A program made the position numbers and the translations under genes. Shown here one piece after another: positions 40,167-60,603 of a stretch of 64,000 bases of DNA. This DNA is from Candidatus Borrarchaeum yapensis (GTDB taxonomy: Archaea > Asgardarchaeota > Sifarchaeia > Borrarchaeales > Borrarchaeaceae): contig JAEOSF010000009.1 of NCBI GenBank assembly GCA_016840515.1, positions 1 through 64,000 of the forward strand. Direction: 5' to 3'. The stretch's first letter is position 1. Each line of letters begins with the position of its first letter. Below the pieces are notes generated by a model that had not been told where the DNA came from, ran no database searches, and was given only the letters and a program-made list of their open reading frames with translations.

Positions 40167-40259
40167 TCATTTCTTCTTCTTACCAGATTTCTTTGTCTTC
40201 TTACCCGTCTCTGTAGGACTTCCACCCTTTTTCGTTCCACCCTTCTTCTTCTTTGCCAT
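40167..40259 (-). CDS. 30-aa polylysine microprotein MAKKKKGGTKKGGSPTETGKKTKKSGKKKK
   Basis: Clean ATG-TGA minus-strand ORF below the track cut-off; adjacent to acidic microproteins. Confidence 0.6.
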   Translation of the reverse strand: MAKKKKGGTKKGGSPTETGKKTKKSGKKKK

Positions 40260-40327
40260 ATTCATACCCCAATTTTCTTTATATATTAATTCATTTCATT
40301 TCATTTAAGTTTTTCTGTTTTCAACTA

Positions 40328-40435
40328 TCAGTCTTCTTCATCGTCTTCCCAGTCTTCGTCTTCTTCATCGTCTTCCCAGTCTTCATCTTCCCATTCATCG
40401 TCTTCTTCTTTTTTCTTTTTGTCTTTCGAAACCAT
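40328..40435 (-). CDS. 35-aa acidic Trp-rich microprotein MVSKDKKKKEEDDEWEDEDWEDDEEDEDWEDDEED
   Basis: Minus-strand ORF with a strong RBS (taggaggagttctatATG). Confidence 0.7.
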   Translation of the reverse strand: MVSKDKKKKEEDDEWEDEDWEDDEEDEDWEDDEED

Positions 40436-40447
40436 ATAGAACTCCTC

Positions 40448-40525
40448 CTATACATTTTTGAATTTCTTAACCACTTCAGTAGGTTCTTCAGTTTCTATAT
40501 TAGAAATTCCTTTGATATTAACCAT
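40448..40525 (-). CDS. Possible 25-aa micro-ORF MVNIKGISNIETEEPTEVVKKFKNV
   Basis: Stop TAG overlaps the RBS of the next ORF (gtaTAGGAGGAG); no strong RBS of its own. Confidence 0.3.
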   Translation of the reverse strand: MVNIKGISNIETEEPTEVVKKFKNV

Positions 40526-40730
40526 AAATACATTTTTATTAGGTTAAAGCTATTTCTTGTAACTGTGTAGGATAAAATCAAGCCTATTGCTTATAAAATT
40601 CTCTTATGTGTTTAAGAAACGAAAGATTACCGTTATCCCTTAAGGGAATGTAAATTAAAGGAACAAGGAGTTGTTATTTCTCAACTTGAAAATAGTCACT
40701 TTATGATAAAACACAAAATTTTGCCAAACT

Positions 40731-40898
40731 TCACCATTCGTCATCGTCCTCGTCATCTTCATCTTCCCAGTCTTCGCCGTTGCCTTCCCATTTTTCGTCA
40801 TCGTCCTCGTCATCTTCATCTTCCCATTCTTCGTCATAACCGATATCATTATCATCCCAGTACTTTACTTTTTTCTTTTTCGGGCCATTCCATATCAT
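40731..40898 (-). CDS. 55-aa acidic Trp-rich microprotein MIWNGPKKKKVKYWDDNDIGYDEEWEDEDDEDDDEKWEGNGEDWEDEDDEDDDEW
   Basis: RBS-like aggag ~9 nt upstream of ATG; internal duplication of WEDEDDEDDDE. Confidence 0.68.
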   Translation of the reverse strand: MIWNGPKKKKVKYWDDNDIGYDEEWEDEDDEDDDEKWEGNGEDWEDEDDEDDDEW

Positions 40899-41258
40899 AA
40901 GAAAACACTCCTAAATTTGATTGTTCTTAGACGACTTTGTAAGTCAATTAGTTGTAAATGAGGTGATCAGTGATTTTAACTAATAAATAAATTTGTATAA
41001 GATTAAAAGGATTTTTAATGACTATTGAGCATAAAATCTTGTCTCTTATTTATGGAATTATCCTCTTTGTTTATAAGACAAAGACTAACAAATGTCTCTT
41101 TTCTGATTGTAAATTAAAAGAAAAAAGGACAAATATTATTTTATCTAAAGATAGTCACTTAGTTAATTTTGCTAACTTCTGTTTGTATCTCACTCAAATT
41201 GTTCGTCCTGTTATTCACCCAATTAATTAGTAAAGTATTACTAGATCTGTCCTCAAAT

Positions 41259-42050
41259 CTAATCAACAATTGTTGCTGTTAACATTTTGCTTTGAATTCG
41301 TAAAACCTTTTTGCATTTATTGATAACTCTGAGCGCTTTCCTGTATTCTTTCATTAAGTCAATTTTGTAAACTTTTTTTAAAAAGAAACTTGTTTCTTTA
41401 GTATGAATAAACCTGATTTTAATTTCGTTAAATGAATGCTTAGCTTTGAGTAAACTAACAGCAGACTCTTTCAATTGTTGTATGAGTTTTCTACAGGCTA
41501 GTTCAATAGAAGTAAATTCTTTTGTACGTATGGCTCTTATTGCTTCTAATAGTTCAAGAGCTATCTTGTTTTCCATTATTATTCTTGGAATTATTATAGT
41601 CTCTCCACCAAGTTCTTGTATAGTATCTACGAATCTACGTGGGCTAATTATCTTACTTCCTTGTGGAATTAATCTTCTAAAGTTTATTTGAGGCCACACA
41701 TAAATATTTCTGGTTAGTCTTATATATGGTGATCTTCTAAGCAATCGACTAACATGTTTTCGCATTCGAACGGAATAATTTTCTGAAGGAAAGGAGTATG
41801 CGACTAAAACAAGACTTCCTAGCTGAAAATTGTTATTGGTAATTCGTATTCTTTCAATTTCTCTTTGTTTTTTAAGCAGAATATAAGATACTATATGGGT
41901 ACTTAAATACTTTTTAACACGGTTTACCGAACCTGAAGGTAATTTCCACAGATTTTTTATGACTTTTTCGCATCCAAAACTTCTTAATCGTTTAAAAAGT
42001 TCTTTTTTATGTTTAAATTCTTTAGCGAAGCGAAAAATTATATAAAACAC
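41259..42050 (-). CDS. Putative two-domain Cas2/ChrB-N-like ferredoxin-fold protein
   Basis: Segment 1 FRFAKEFKHKKELFKRLRSFGCEKVIKNLWKLPSGSVNRVKKYL resembles Cas2/VapD topology; segment 2 LVLVAYSFPSENYSVRMRKHVSRLLRRSPYIRLTRNIYVWP resembles ChrB-N/PaaX/Cas2-like domains. Confidence 0.45.
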   Translation of the reverse strand: MFYIIFRFAKEFKHKKELFKRLRSFGCEKVIKNLWKLPSGSVNRVKKYLSTHIVSYILLKKQREIERIRITNNNFQLGSLVLVAYSFPSENYSVRMRKHVSRLLRRSPYIRLTRNIYVWPQINFRRLIPQGSKIISPRRFVDTIQELGGETIIIPRIIMENKIALELLEAIRAIRTKEFTSIELACRKLIQQLKESAVSLLKAKHSFNEIKIRFIHTKETSFFLKKVYKIDLMKEYRKALRVINKCKKVLRIQSKMLTATIVD

Positions 42051-42119: not shown

Positions 42120-42490
42120 GAGACTCCAGACTTTGAAGGCGAAGAGGAATTGAAATCGGGCGTTGCTCACGCAATCCTTTCTGCAGAAAAGGGGTTGGTG
42201 TACCCAACCTCACTCGGGTGGTGTTTTAATGACGGGTACTCTCATGTCCCATCGCTCCCAACACCAGGGAGTAGGTCCACTTCGAGACTGTTGCAAAGGC
42301 TTGTTAGGTCGGCAGCACCGTTCCTACCCCTCAGAACTTTTAACCACCGACTACAGAGAAGGGGGCTAGTGGAGCACCCCAGGGTGTCATGGCCTAAACA
42401 ACTGCTGCATCTCGCTGAGAGATGCCCTCTAATCAACTAAGGGACTTGTATGAACAAGCCCCTACCCATTAGGGTGGGGTAATTGACATT
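42120..42490 (+). mobile_element. Putative tnpB-less IS200/IS605-like element with omegaRNA-like right end
   Basis: GC-rich noncoding island ending ..ctgcatctcgctgagagatgccctctaatcaactaagggacttgtatgaacaagcccctacccattagggtggggtaattgac, with terminal hairpin CCCCTACCC-atta-GGGTGGGG typical in form of TnpB element right ends. Confidence 0.5.
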
Positions 42491-46384: not shown

Positions 46385-47383
46385 TTAATATCGACTCTTT
46401 TCATACTTGCAAAGTATGTCTACGATCGTTTTTACAGCCAATGTAGATGTAATACCATTATCGAATGGCGGACAGAGTTCGACTACATCAAAACCTGTAA
46501 GTTTCTCACAATAACTCTCAAGAAGTTGAAGAAACTCCCAAGGCGAAATTCCATAAGGTTCGGGTGTTGATACCCCTGGAGCATATGCAGGATCAAACAC
46601 ATCAAGATCTAAAGAGAGATATACCTTCTCAAATGGTTCTAGAAGCTTTTGAATTTTTTTACCAATAACTCTAGTTCCTTCTTTGTGTAAATCATAACTG
46701 GAAATCATTTGAATTCGTTCTTCAGATTTAAAATAGTCAAATTCCAAGGGATCTACGGATCTAATTCCTATTGAGACGATTTGGTCAATTCCCGATTCTA
46801 TAATCCGTCTGAATACCGTAGCATGTGTATATGCTTCATTCACTGCTGGAGTGTATGGATAGCGATCATATAAATCCATATGTGCATCAAAATGTAATAT
46901 ACAGCTTGTTTGATTCTTAATTAAACCTTTAATGACAGGAAGTGTAATCAGATGGTCTCCTCCAAGCGCTATAGGAAATTGATTTTCAGTTAAATTTTCA
47001 TGTACGAAGTTTTCTATTTGATTTAGTTCTTTTTTAAGATCATCTGCAGTATTACTGCAAATTTTAATATCTCCAATATCTATCAGTTTATCCCTAATAT
47101 CCACACCTGTGTTTAAGTCAAAAGTATGAACGTAGCGAGAAATTTCACGGATCGCCCAAGGACCAAATTTAGCTCCATGTCGCACACTACTGTGTCTTTC
47201 GTAAGGCACACCAAATATTACATAAGGTAAAGTTCTGTCCGTGTTAGATATTTCCAAAAAAGTACATGATGGAATGGGAACAGTTTTTTCCTGCAAAAAT
47301 TTAGACAATTTTTGAAAATCAGGATATTCCATAATAAACATACCTTTTTGCGCATTTATTTCTTTTAAGAAGATAATTGACAA
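46385..47383 (-). CDS. speB: Agmatinase/arginase family ureohydrolase
   Basis: GGDHLITLPV, LHFDAHMDLYD, SLDLDVFDPAYAPGVSTPEPYG. Confidence 0.92.
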   Translation of the reverse strand: MSIIFLKEINAQKGMFIMEYPDFQKLSKFLQEKTVPIPSCTFLEISNTDRTLPYVIFGVPYERHSSVRHGAKFGPWAIREISRYVHTFDLNTGVDIRDKLIDIGDIKICSNTADDLKKELNQIENFVHENLTENQFPIALGGDHLITLPVIKGLIKNQTSCILHFDAHMDLYDRYPYTPAVNEAYTHATVFRRIIESGIDQIVSIGIRSVDPLEFDYFKSEERIQMISSYDLHKEGTRVIGKKIQKLLEPFEKVYLSLDLDVFDPAYAPGVSTPEPYGISPWEFLQLLESYCEKLTGFDVVELCPPFDNGITSTLAVKTIVDILCKYEKSRY

Positions 47384-47394
47384 GCCAGGCTTTT

Positions 47395-48480
47395 TTAGAG
47401 CATTTTACGTCTTGTAATTCTATTTTGTATATTTATTTTACCCAACTCGATGCGTTCAAGTATAGCAGCAGCTATAAGTGGAAAACATATTGTTATATCG
47501 CTGATGACTGTTGTATGTGTTTCGTTTTCGGCAGCTACTTTTCCCCAGGAAATCGCCTCTTCTAATGTCGCACCGGATAAACCTCCAGGTTCAGGACGAT
47601 CCATAGTTATTTGAATTACATATTTTAAGGGCTTCTTTAGTTCATTCCCTGCTTGAAATATGAAATTCTTTGGCACGCCACCTCCTAATATGACAGCTGC
47701 AGTGTTTTTAGATCCTTCAAATATCTGAAAGAACTCTTTTAAGTCTTGATATACGTCAATTTTCGGATGGACTCCTCTTAAAGCATCTACTTCTTCTCTA
47801 CTACAGCCAGCTTCAATAAAATCCTGTTCCCATTTATCAACTCCCCATGAAATTATTCCAAAGCAAGAATCAGTAATAGCTGGGACAAAAATGGGAATAT
47901 CTGCCTTATAGGCATTATAGATCACTGATTCATTCAATAGACTTTTATCCGAAACTAATCGTTCCAGATGTTCTGCCAATAAGCGAAACAGTTCTGGAGT
48001 AGTGATTTTAGGCATATTCTGAATTTCTTTGTAGAATTTCAATACAGGTAAATCAAACCATTTAACATAGTTCCATTCTGGAACAAATACATCGTAAATA
48101 CGATATATCCCAGTTTTATACAATTCTCTATCATCAACTTGGCATTTTCCTTTAATATGGTGTCCTCCAAATGCTTCTAATGCGTCATGAACAAGATTTG
48201 CGCCTGTAGATACAATTGCATCAATAGCATTGGCCCTGAGTAAGGCTGAAATTACTCCTTTCATTCCAGAAGGTGTCATTGCACCTGACAAGCCTAAAAA
48301 TACACTACATTCATCATCATTAAGCATTTTTTCGTAGATTTCAGTAGCTTCCGCTAATCTACCGGCACCAAAACATCCAGATTTTTTCATTTCTAATATT
48401 ATTTCATTCACGGTCATTTTAGGTCGAATATTTAAAGGAAGAATAACGTCATTCATCTTTATTTCTCTCCTTATTATCAA
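47395..48480 (-). CDS. Deoxyhypusine synthase
   Basis: GLSGAMTPSGMKGVI, STGANLVHD, GGGVPKNF (position of the catalytic Lys), TMDRPEPGGLSGATLEEAISWGK. Confidence 0.93.
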   Translation of the reverse strand: MIIRREIKMNDVILPLNIRPKMTVNEIILEMKKSGCFGAGRLAEATEIYEKMLNDDECSVFLGLSGAMTPSGMKGVISALLRANAIDAIVSTGANLVHDALEAFGGHHIKGKCQVDDRELYKTGIYRIYDVFVPEWNYVKWFDLPVLKFYKEIQNMPKITTPELFRLLAEHLERLVSDKSLLNESVIYNAYKADIPIFVPAITDSCFGIISWGVDKWEQDFIEAGCSREEVDALRGVHPKIDVYQDLKEFFQIFEGSKNTAAVILGGGVPKNFIFQAGNELKKPLKYVIQITMDRPEPGGLSGATLEEAISWGKVAAENETHTTVISDITICFPLIAAAILERIELGKINIQNRITRRKML

Positions 48481-48495
48481 ATTATTTTCAAAATG

Positions 48496-49476
48496 TTATT
48501 TTTTCTCCTTAAATGCAAGAAAAACCATACTCAACCCAGGTAGAGCATATGGAATTCTTTCTTCAATATTAGCAAAAGAATTGAACAGAATTTTTAGCCA
48601 CTTTGGTGGTTCAGACATGTCAAGATATGTGCTGGGAATAAAATTGGTGACTGAATGAATTGTCCAATTCTTTATTACTTTAAGATGATATCTCGCAAGT
48701 TCAAGTTTTAATCCTTTTGCAGTAAATGATTTTATGTTGCATCTCTGATCTTCAGGTTGGTCAAGCGGATATCTATTTATGATATATTCCGAAGGTGGGG
48801 CAAAAACAGCTCTAATTGCTTTGAAAAAAGGTTTGTCATATCCCCACCGATTTTTCAAGACGGCATCGAAAACCGACCAAAATAAATCCAGGTTCCATCT
48901 AGAGTCACCTTCTAGTAGAACGGTACCACCTGGTTTTAATACTCTTGCAATTTCAGAAATTGCACGCTGATGATCTTCAATAAAGCAAAGCGTACTGCCG
49001 GCGCAATTAACATGGTCAAAACTCTCATTTGCGAAAGGCAGGTATCTGGCATCCGCTATCTGAAAACTCGGTTGTTTGTATTGGTTTCCTGCAATTTCCT
49101 TGCTTAAAAGAGTACCAATTATTTCATTATATCTCTCAACAAAATCATAGTACGATGGGAACAAAGTTATCTTCTTTTTTGGCTTAAAATTTAAGGATTT
49201 TTGATTTGCAACTTTTATTAGTCCTTCTGTAATATCTATTCCAACTACAGAGGCTCCCGCAATAGCGTGTAAAAATGATTGAAAGCCCGTCCCGCATCCT
49301 ACATCTAGTACAGTTTTAGGGTTGTATTTTTTGATAATTTGCTGTGCAACAATAAAATGAAGACGAGAGAATAACCACGCATACCATAACTCTTGTATTT
49401 CATCGTAAGTGTTTACCATAGTGTTAAATATCTCAGAGGCGCTCATTTTATCGTCACTTATCAAGTTATGCAACAA
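48496..49476 (-). CDS. SAM-dependent methyltransferase (class I)
   Basis: VLDVGCGTGFQSFLHAIAGASVVGIDIT, FDHVNCAGSTLCFIEDHQRAISEIARVLKPGGTVLLEG. Confidence 0.9.
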   Translation of the reverse strand: MLHNLISDDKMSASEIFNTMVNTYDEIQELWYAWLFSRLHFIVAQQIIKKYNPKTVLDVGCGTGFQSFLHAIAGASVVGIDITEGLIKVANQKSLNFKPKKKITLFPSYYDFVERYNEIIGTLLSKEIAGNQYKQPSFQIADARYLPFANESFDHVNCAGSTLCFIEDHQRAISEIARVLKPGGTVLLEGDSRWNLDLFWSVFDAVLKNRWGYDKPFFKAIRAVFAPPSEYIINRYPLDQPEDQRCNIKSFTAKGLKLELARYHLKVIKNWTIHSVTNFIPSTYLDMSEPPKWLKILFNSFANIEERIPYALPGLSMVFLAFKEKK

Positions 49477-49560
49477 AATAGTGCATTAATCATAAAAATA
49501 TAAGAAAATCAATCTTGAGATTCATTATGTATAAAAATTGAAAAACAAGTCAATAAAAAA

Positions 49561-50142
49561 TTATAGGATTCTACAACCTTCTTCGATTTCCCAGGGTACA
49601 TAAATTAGTGCAACGATTACGCAACCATTGTTTTCTTTGACTTCTATAGATTCTGCTCGTATTGACTTTTCGGTTATCTTTAACATTCTTACTCTTGCCA
49701 TCTCATCTAGTTTATCGGAAAGTGAACGCTCTACACTATTTTTTGACTTAAAGCCATGATCTTCTGCTACAATACCGAAATTGACACCGTTGTCGCGATT
49801 ACCGAATGCCCATCCTACACCAGCGCCAATAGTCTCTCCATGTTGCCCATCCATTCTCGCTAAGACAGCAAAAGTTATTGTGCCTGGTGTTATCATCGGA
49901 ATTGGATTTTTAAGTTGAATGGCATCTGGTGGAAGGATTGATGATACCTGAACAATATTACACTGGTCAATGTGTGCTGCCATTAATGCCATATCAAAAG
50001 CGTTTAGTGATGTTCCACTTTCACCTTTTCCACTTGTTATGAAAAATTTCTTAGGGAGAAACATACCATGCTGAAGTAATTTAGCATACACCCAAATATC
50101 GCCTCCTCCAATAAAAGTAGCACGTATTGAATTAGTTTTCAT
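49561..50142 (-). CDS. pdaD: Pyruvoyl-dependent arginine decarboxylase
   Basis: FFITSGKGESGTSLNAFDMALMAAHIDQCNIVQVSSILPPDA, including the Ser-Ser self-cleavage site. Confidence 0.92.
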   Translation of the reverse strand: MKTNSIRATFIGGGDIWVYAKLLQHGMFLPKKFFITSGKGESGTSLNAFDMALMAAHIDQCNIVQVSSILPPDAIQLKNPIPMITPGTITFAVLARMDGQHGETIGAGVGWAFGNRDNGVNFGIVAEDHGFKSKNSVERSLSDKLDEMARVRMLKITEKSIRAESIEVKENNGCVIVALIYVPWEIEEGCRIL

Positions 50143-59147: not shown

Positions 59148-59502
59148 CGAACCAGTTTCTCCAGTATATTTATCGAGATCTATGAGTCAACGTCAGCGAT
59201 TCGCTTGGATATCAGTACATTTTTTAAATTTAACGTTACAAGTAACAAGAAGGAAGGATTCCTAAATATTATAGAAATCCATAATTCGCAAAGACAAATA
59301 GTAACTTGGACTGTCTATGGAATGGTTTTTTAAACTACAAACCGAAATTTGTAAACTTCCCATTGTTATGATCCAAGTTTTCAAATATTCAGTCTTGCAT
59401 TTTAATTTACATGGCTCATAAAAAAAATGAATGAAAAAAATGATAAAGAAGAGGCGAACATTATTATTGTCTTTTGGGCCTGCTACGAAGGGTGATTGGC
59501 GA

Positions 59503-60603
59503 ATGACAACGAATTTCGTGAAGGTTAAAGGAGATACATATTACATAAAAAACGGTACACTAGACCTTCGCAAGAAAGGAATTATTGATTTAAAAAATAT
59601 CAAAGGACTAGAGAACCTCACTAATCTCCAAGAATTGGATCTTAGTAATAATAAAATAAAAGAAATTAAAGGATTAGAACACCTTATTCACCTAAAGAAG
59701 CTAGACCTGAGTAATAACGATCTAGAAGAGATCAAGAATTTAGAATCTCTTACTAATCTCCAGAAATTAAACCTTAGTGGTAACAATATAGTAGAAATCA
59801 AAGGATTACGGCATCTCATTAATCTCCAAGAACTAAACCTCAGTAATAATCAGATGAAAGAGATAAAAGGATTAGCACGCCTTATTAATCTTCAAAAACT
59901 ACACCTTAGCGAAAACAGTATAGAGGAAATTAGAGGATTAGAGCAACTCATTAATCTTCAAGAACTAGATCTTGGGGGTAACAATATAAAAGAAATTAAA
60001 GAATTAGATGCTCTAACCAGCCTCCAAATTCTAAATCTTCGTTGGAACTATATAAACGAAATTAAGGGCTTGGAGAACATCACTAACCTCCAAAAACTCT
60101 ACCTGAATCATAATTTTATCGAAGAGATCAAAGGATTAGAAACCTTTATCAATCTCCAAGAACTAAACCTCAGAAGCAATTATATAAATGAGATTAAGGG
60201 CTTAGAGAACCTCAATACACTACAAAAACTATTTCTTGGTAATGATATAGAAGATATCGTAGGGATGGGAAGTCTTGCTGATCTGGAAAAACTAGATCCT
60301 CGAAATACGATAGACGAGATTAAAGGATTAGAACATCTTACCAATCTTATAGAATTGTCCCTTCGTGCTAATGAGATTAAAGAGATACAAGGGTTAGAGA
60401 AACTCATCAACCTCCAAAAACTAGACCTTAGATTCAATCAGATAAAAGAGATAAAGGGATTGGAGCATTTCTCTATGTTACAGGAAGTAAAAATTAGATT
60501 TAATCCAATAAAACACAGTGAAAGCCATTTAGTAGGGAGACCTGGGCAGGAACTTGTAAGATACTGTCGAAAAAAGGTTGAAAAACTAATAAGAAGTGGT
60601 TGA
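59503..60603 (+). CDS. SDS22-like LRR protein, single module
   Basis: Same caps (FVKVKGDTYYIKNGTLDLRKKGI; NPIKHSESHLVGRPGQELVRYC) and LRRs as the 151-2541 protein; start MTTNFVKVKG preferred over 59431. Confidence 0.92.
   Translation: MTTNFVKVKGDTYYIKNGTLDLRKKGIIDLKNIKGLENLTNLQELDLSNNKIKEIKGLEHLIHLKKLDLSNNDLEEIKNLESLTNLQKLNLSGNNIVEIKGLRHLINLQELNLSNNQMKEIKGLARLINLQKLHLSENSIEEIRGLEQLINLQELDLGGNNIKEIKELDALTSLQILNLRWNYINEIKGLENITNLQKLYLNHNFIEEIKGLETFINLQELNLRSNYINEIKGLENLNTLQKLFLGNDIEDIVGMGSLADLEKLDPRNTIDEIKGLEHLTNLIELSLRANEIKEIQGLEKLINLQKLDLRFNQIKEIKGLEHFSMLQEVKIRFNPIKHSESHLVGRPGQELVRYCRKKVEKLIRSG

Follow-up and report, generated by a model that had tools for sequence, protein, structure and literature searches.

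Why would an archaeon keep, side by side on one strand, minute genes whose products are rich either in lysine or in acidic residues and tryptophan (Trp)? The question is raised by positions 40167-40898 of a 64,000-nucleotide stretch of DNA (hereafter the window; positions 1 to 64,000 of contig JAEOSF010000009.1, assembly GCA_016840515.1), one contig of the 3.6-Mb genome of the Asgard archaeon Candidatus Borrarchaeum yapensis (genus Borrarchaeum). Asgard archaea are closely related to the archaeon from which eukaryotes descend. A sequence-only reading of this DNA had proposed three tiny minus-strand genes there, encoding a 30-, a 35- and a 55-mer, together with a possible fourth of 25 amino acids (aa). 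Here, our comparisons show that the cluster is a genuine gene set, in which acidic-Trp microproteins and a polylysine microprotein are encoded together with a basic protein of tandem Cas2-like type.

Charged microproteins beside a basic Cas2-like protein

All three proposed genes were found in place on the minus strand. The 55-aa acidic-Trp microprotein (40731-40898) carries an internal lysine block, KKKKVKYW, and its gene is preceded by an AGGAG Shine-Dalgarno site, while the 35-aa microprotein (40328-40435) has a diblock design, with an N-terminal lysine block and a C-terminal acidic-Trp block, and the GGAGG Shine-Dalgarno site previously ascribed to its gene was confirmed. The third gene (40167-40259) encodes the 30-aa polylysine microprotein MAKKKKGGTKKGGSPTETGKKTKKSGKKKK (MAKKKKGG...GKKKK). 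An in-frame ATG further upstream would extend the latter to 32 aa; the second ATG is conserved and the first is not retained in Candidatus Borrarchaeum weybense (JAHQJS010000004.1), the nearest named relative, which shares 85-98% DNA identity with the window genome for most common genes. In this relative, orthologues were identified in the same order, namely a 54-mer (83% identical to the 55-mer), a 37-mer corresponding to the 35-mer (MVSKEKKKKVEEEEWEFDDEDWDDDDDDDDDDDDEDW) and, at the spot equivalent to the polylysine gene, the 17-aa polylysine peptide MPKKKKTGAKKTTKAKK, and the cluster is flanked, as in the window, by a TPR gene and an 871-aa helicase gene. The window genome as a whole (3.6 Mb) has five occurrences of the codon string for W-E-D-[DE]-[DE], each of them inside the cluster. 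The window peptides and 28 acidic relatives displayed no Pfam match up to E = 1, nor any NCBIfam match for those scanned, and a literature search whose scope left out preprints and most subscription journals found no paper on such microproteins. Since the peptides are 17-66 aa long and of low complexity, they tend to escape notice when length cut-offs, profile libraries or low-complexity filters are applied.

Comparison of the first 29 codons of the 55-mer gene between the window and Ca. B. weybense revealed that six of the eight substitutions are synonymous and two non-synonymous, with about 13% of sites being synonymous (P = 1.3e-4). In pairs of genomes from family f4 (f1, f4 and the like are working labels, not taxonomic names), the differences in the acidic gene fall at third codon positions in 9/9 or 10/10 cases; at related f4 loci, five of six changes in the polylysine gene are synonymous, and one further polylysine pair (L110/L112) displayed no synonymous bias. 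Together, these substitution patterns indicate that the acidic-Trp and polylysine genes are under purifying selection in several close pairs. The acidic codons of the window genes are an intermixture of GAA, GAC, GAT and GAG, with no single repeat unit, whereas the tail of the weybense 37-mer is mostly a run of GAC codons. In addition, the 55-mer contains a duplicated segment of which both copies were altered in concert between the two species, indicating slippage or gene conversion. Repeat slippage also acts on the acidic tails, and the concern that these peptides might vary as simple low-complexity DNA, which the sequence-only reading had itself raised, is partly right; it applies to the tails only, whereas the first 29 codons of the 55-mer carry a coding signal.

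The region upstream of the 55-mer gene (40899-41258, minus strand) is paralogous to that upstream of the 35-mer gene (40436-40730, minus strand), with 69% identity over 155 nucleotides, the latter being the second copy of a duplicated leader. These paralogous leaders are the trace of a tandem duplication of a leader together with an acidic open reading frame (ORF). Their conservation in Ca. B. weybense (80% for the 55-mer leader and 82% for the 35-mer leader) is what intergenic DNA of these two genomes ordinarily shows. A function of the leader as a regulatory RNA was considered and rejected, given nothing above threshold in Rfam, a weak alignment fold and the ordinary identity of 80-82%. The proposed 25-aa ORF (40448-40525), which lies within the 35-mer leader, was also discarded as a gene, since in Ca. 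B. weybense the fifth codon of its frame is a stop.

Directly upstream of the microprotein genes lies a conserved gene (41259-42050, minus strand) that the sequence-only reading overlooked and that the cluster should include. Starting with GTG, it encodes a basic 263-aa protein with a net charge of +37, belonging to an undescribed family. Its AlphaFold2 model (pLDDT 92.5) displays two Cas2-like ferredoxin folds followed by three long C-terminal helices. Foldseek searches with this model returned matches to Cas2, VapD and the PaaX relative Rv0674, with Cas2 probabilities of 0.4-0.9 and none at E<=1e-3. The N-terminal part of the model is a second ferredoxin-like unit and not the winged helix of PaaX. 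The window protein has no Pfam or NCBIfam assignment and no match to PaaX_M (PF20803), a domain matched by one or two of its relatives at E about 1e-4 (1/35 in a scan of 35 members, 1.1e-4). Because neither the Foldseek nor the PaaX_M matches are stronger than this, "tandem Cas2-like" serves as a working label rather than as proven membership. A sequence search of the PDB gave only chance-level helical matches, PADLOC gave nothing beyond weak Cas2/AbiEi scores, and inspection by eye of those window ORFs that reach 100 aa revealed no cas gene, CRISPR arrays and the other loci being without a systematic search. A viral origin was rejected, as a search of viral contigs, sensitive to close relatives only, gave none for the 55-mer or for two Cas2-like proteins, and so was a plasmid origin, with no relatives of the Cas2-like protein in plasmids. 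Adjoining the 263-aa gene, at 42271-42487 on the minus strand, is a HEARO RNA (Rfam RF02033, 122 bits, E 1e-24), which seems to be an insertion, its DNA having no aligned counterpart in Ca. B. weybense.

G001, a further genome from the genus, has an ADP-dependent phosphofructokinase/glucokinase gene (L061, 2271-3785) in place of the cluster between its helicase and TPR genes, and neither a Cas2-like copy nor the acidic-Trp motif was found in this 76%-complete genome. The replacement of the cluster by a sugar kinase indicates that the module has been gained and lost, as expected for an accessory element.

Conservation across Asgard and other archaea

A profile search over 232 Asgard genomes identified homologues of the Cas2-like protein in 40 of them, representing 18 genera and 8 families, with net charges of +17 to +40. 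Their neighbourhoods comprise 42 oriented loci, 38 with intact flanks and four cut by contig ends; counts of loci ignore relatedness, the loci spanning several families and two arrangements. At 36 of the 38 intact loci, an acidic-Trp ORF of 25-55 aa lies no more than about 1.1 kb away from the Cas2-like match, the G011 and G026 loci being without one despite intact flanks. Such ORFs are concentrated near the Cas2-like gene (38 in 111 kb, versus 2 in 207 kb beyond 2 kb, both of which resemble extra family members). Extra acidic-Trp copies were observed about 3-4 kb from the Cas2-like gene, at about 7361-7441 in L125 and about 656-730 in L128. The 40 acidic-Trp ORFs in the vicinity of the Cas2-like gene were chosen on having one Trp or more, and a Shine-Dalgarno site precedes every one of them, compared with 738 of 5456 short ORFs (13.5%) in the same DNA under the same rule. 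The acidic peptides contain about 47-81% aspartate and glutamate, and 32 of the 40 end in W, F or Y, 29 of them in Trp. Since frame and synteny are conserved, Shine-Dalgarno sites are present and selection is purifying, there is strong support for these ORFs as real small-protein genes.

Two layouts were distinguished. In Borrarchaeum and family f11 the microprotein genes are co-directional and downstream of the Cas2-like gene, and in families f4, f8 and f17 they are divergent and upstream of it. Many Asgard lineages thus keep a gene for an acidic-Trp microprotein together with the Cas2-like gene, and the conserved synteny that the sequence-only reading had suggested looking for was found beside Cas2-like homologues across the Asgard archaea. 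A polylysine microprotein, typically beginning MAKKK, accompanies them at about 18 of the 38 loci. As acidic and basic peptides are neighbours in roughly half of the loci, across several families and in varied orders, and the two blocks are fused in other archaea, their functional linkage is supported, in agreement with the earlier suggestion that they belong together. At five loci (L104, L105, L109, L116 and L117), a second, less repetitive acidic-Trp ORF (e.g. MSESKESKPVVDESWDDVPLPEEYWGDEFEDDELDVW) was also seen on the opposite strand near the 3' end of the Cas2-like gene, with eight of nine changes synonymous between G022 and G226.

The acidic-Trp peptides extend beyond the Cas2-like gene. 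A profile search with the acidic peptides recovered 6 genomes, every match lying no further than about 5 kb from a Cas2-like gene, and proved too insensitive for such low complexity; we therefore adopted a codon pattern ([DE][DE]W followed by acidic codons) with a reversed-pattern control. The pattern matched 97 of the 232 Asgard genomes and its reverse none among the genomes listed, motif and profile counts being lower bounds given that many genomes are incomplete. It was found in 33/40 genomes with a Cas2-like gene versus 64/192 without one, uncorrected for phylogeny. The first 30 matching loci were a mixture of stand-alone peptides and acidic segments in larger proteins, and the matching ORFs of another 20 regions all encode stand-alone peptides, 27-66 aa in length, several of which carry an N-terminal lysine block (MAKKKKKEEDWDED..., MVPKKKDTEDDDEDW...) in the diblock design of the window 35-mer. 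A purine-phosphorylase gene adjoins the acidic gene in seven f4 genomes, as it does at the Cas2-like locus of G043; in these seven no Cas2-like gene was recognised, which indicates that the peptide is not dependent on the Cas2-like protein. In G097 and G099, likewise, acidic and polylysine peptides occur together without a Cas2-like gene. A restriction of the peptides to Asgard archaea was rejected, as the motif was found in 40 of 165 non-Asgard archaeal genomes, where five of the seven loci read are stand-alone small ORFs, including MPKGKKEVEKKPKVEEEEEWEDDEEWEDDEGWEEDWEDEEY. In other archaea, the lysine and acidic-Trp blocks are also found fused in one peptide. The peptide class is accordingly archaeal, the Cas2-like linkage having been tested in Asgard archaea only.

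Possible functions and competing explanations

Several clues point toward nucleic-acid-associated proteins. Acidic-Trp sequences form C-terminal tails on PCNA in one Asgard family (L143, L144, L146 and L148) and on Spt5 in another (L161-L163), the domains being confirmed by Pfam; the Spt5 tails have a terminal SKFEF in common. A polylysine-polylysine-acidic cluster in G097 is followed, some 0.85 kb downstream and on the same strand, by a histone gene, and the window's own genome (G000) gave 8 histone-fold matches. Of 185 histone-positive genomes, 89 carry the motif, against 8 of the 47 that are histone-negative (P = 1e-4, ancestry ignored). In the four mostly histone-less families (38 genomes), no stand-alone peptide was identified, and there were two motif matches, one of them in a 95-aa frame. 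A histone or chromatin link of the acidic-Trp peptides, histone-associated factors being among the roles that the sequence-only reading had suggested, thus has circumstantial support.

Taken together, we propose that the acidic-Trp peptides may be disordered polyanions that bind basic nucleic-acid-associated proteins, by analogy with the acidic domains of histone chaperones; we regard this as a serious possibility, if not yet a probable one. Spaced tryptophans would anchor the short disordered acidic peptides on basic protein surfaces. Acting in trans, the peptides might shield, deliver or inhibit the basic partner, with the Cas2-like protein as one client where present and histones or other chromatin-type proteins probably elsewhere; in cis, the tails on PCNA and Spt5 could act alike. 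The polylysine peptide or fused lysine block may provide a counter-charge, by competing for the acidic peptide, by serving as a nucleic-acid tether, or in both ways. A more tentative and on the whole rather unlikely extension holds that charge-patterned microproteins (acidic-Trp plus lysine block, in one or two genes) would constitute an unrecognised archaeal, and foremost Asgard, class of chaperones that act in trans on chromatin or nucleoproteins; many lineages would have a tandem Cas2-like protein as their dedicated partner, and the acidic-Trp element would have been grafted onto PCNA and Spt5, the whole being a counterpart of the acidic regions of eukaryotic histone chaperones. Several observations weigh against these proposals. 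No histone gene was found near any locus tested besides that of G097; ancestry confounds the correlation with histones, most of the histone-poor genomes belonging to four families; the motif search also catches acidic segments of unrelated larger proteins; and the Cas2-like protein would not be the sole target, since acidic-Trp peptides persist without its gene.

The adjacency at 36/38 loci, the opposite charges, the Cas2/VapD-type fold matches and the accessory behaviour seen with the sugar-kinase gene at the G001 site would also fit a toxin-antitoxin-like module, in which a VapD-like toxin, either a nuclease or a binder of nucleic acid, is supplied by the Cas2-like protein and the neutralising antitoxin by the acidic microprotein. 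We give this explanation a low probability; it sits poorly with acidic peptides kept without a Cas2-like gene, with the third, polylysine gene at about half of the loci and with PADLOC scores that are only weak. In line with the nucleic-acid mimic put forward in the sequence-only reading, the acidic peptide might instead imitate the nucleic-acid backbone and so control a Cas2/PaaX-like DNA-binding regulator governing the cluster, as could be suspected from the PaaX/Cas2 resemblance, the strongly basic protein and the divergent layout that, in several families, places both genes around one intergenic region. This seems quite improbable, however, as the structural model comprises ferredoxin folds and helices only, without a winged-helix DNA-binding domain, the leaders are not unusually conserved, and the peptides are found without the Cas2-like protein.

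Interacting or coacervating peptides had been suggested by the sequence-only reading, and complex coacervation, in which acidic-Trp and polylysine peptides condense mutually, with nucleic acid or with polyamines, is consistent with the charge-complementary pairs or diblocks of many lineages. In the window, genes for an arginase/agmatinase-family protein, deoxyhypusine synthase and a pyruvoyl-dependent arginine decarboxylase are grouped at 46385-50142, the latter two 6-9 kb from the cluster, and in three related f3 genomes (L168, L183 and L187) the acidic gene is near arginine decarboxylase and deoxyhypusine synthase genes. A functional tie to polyamine genes is a lead only, and coacervation remains doubtful, the polylysine partner being absent at about half of the loci and the polyamine-gene proximity confined to one family plus the window. 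Weakest is the notion of spurious ORFs in low-complexity DNA, to which the slippage in the weybense 37-mer and the concerted change of the duplicated 55-mer segment lend something, yet which is contradicted by the codon and Shine-Dalgarno tests (10/10 and 9/9 third-position differences in f4 pairs; sites at 40/40 acidic-Trp ORFs), as well as by synteny across families and an empty reversed-pattern control among the Asgard genomes listed, and is almost certainly wrong.

Elsewhere in the window, two leucine-rich-repeat genes (151-2541 and 59431-60603) contain many mutually similar repeats.

Comparison with known systems

If the chaperone proposal holds, the peptides would be candidates for a missing layer in the control of chromatin or nucleoproteins in Asgard archaea, in addition to the tandem Cas2-like family being itself undescribed. 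The idea is cheap to test, small synthetic peptides sufficing.

Among known systems, the Cas2-like family may resemble the central domain of PaaX, to judge by the PaaX_M match of one or two members (E about 1e-4). It differs from Cas2, VapD and PaaX in combining two domains in tandem with a three-helix C-terminal part, in lacking the PaaX winged helix and, for most members, any sequence match, and in having no cas genes recognised among the window ORFs. As in toxin-antitoxin modules with small antitoxins, a small acidic gene stands beside a basic gene with a nuclease-type fold and the distribution is accessory; unlike in such modules, the acidic gene persists alone and an extra polylysine gene is present. 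Acidic-aromatic domains of histone chaperones bind histones and keep them from non-native contacts with DNA. The acidic domain of APLF binds and chaperones the histone octamer through aromatic anchors (PMC9328677). The peptides described here differ from such histone-chaperone domains in being archaeal stand-alone small proteins with a lysine block or polylysine partner, known here from sequence and with no detectable homology. What they have in common with them is a short acidic segment with spaced aromatics, which in these archaea also occurs as tails on replication and transcription proteins.
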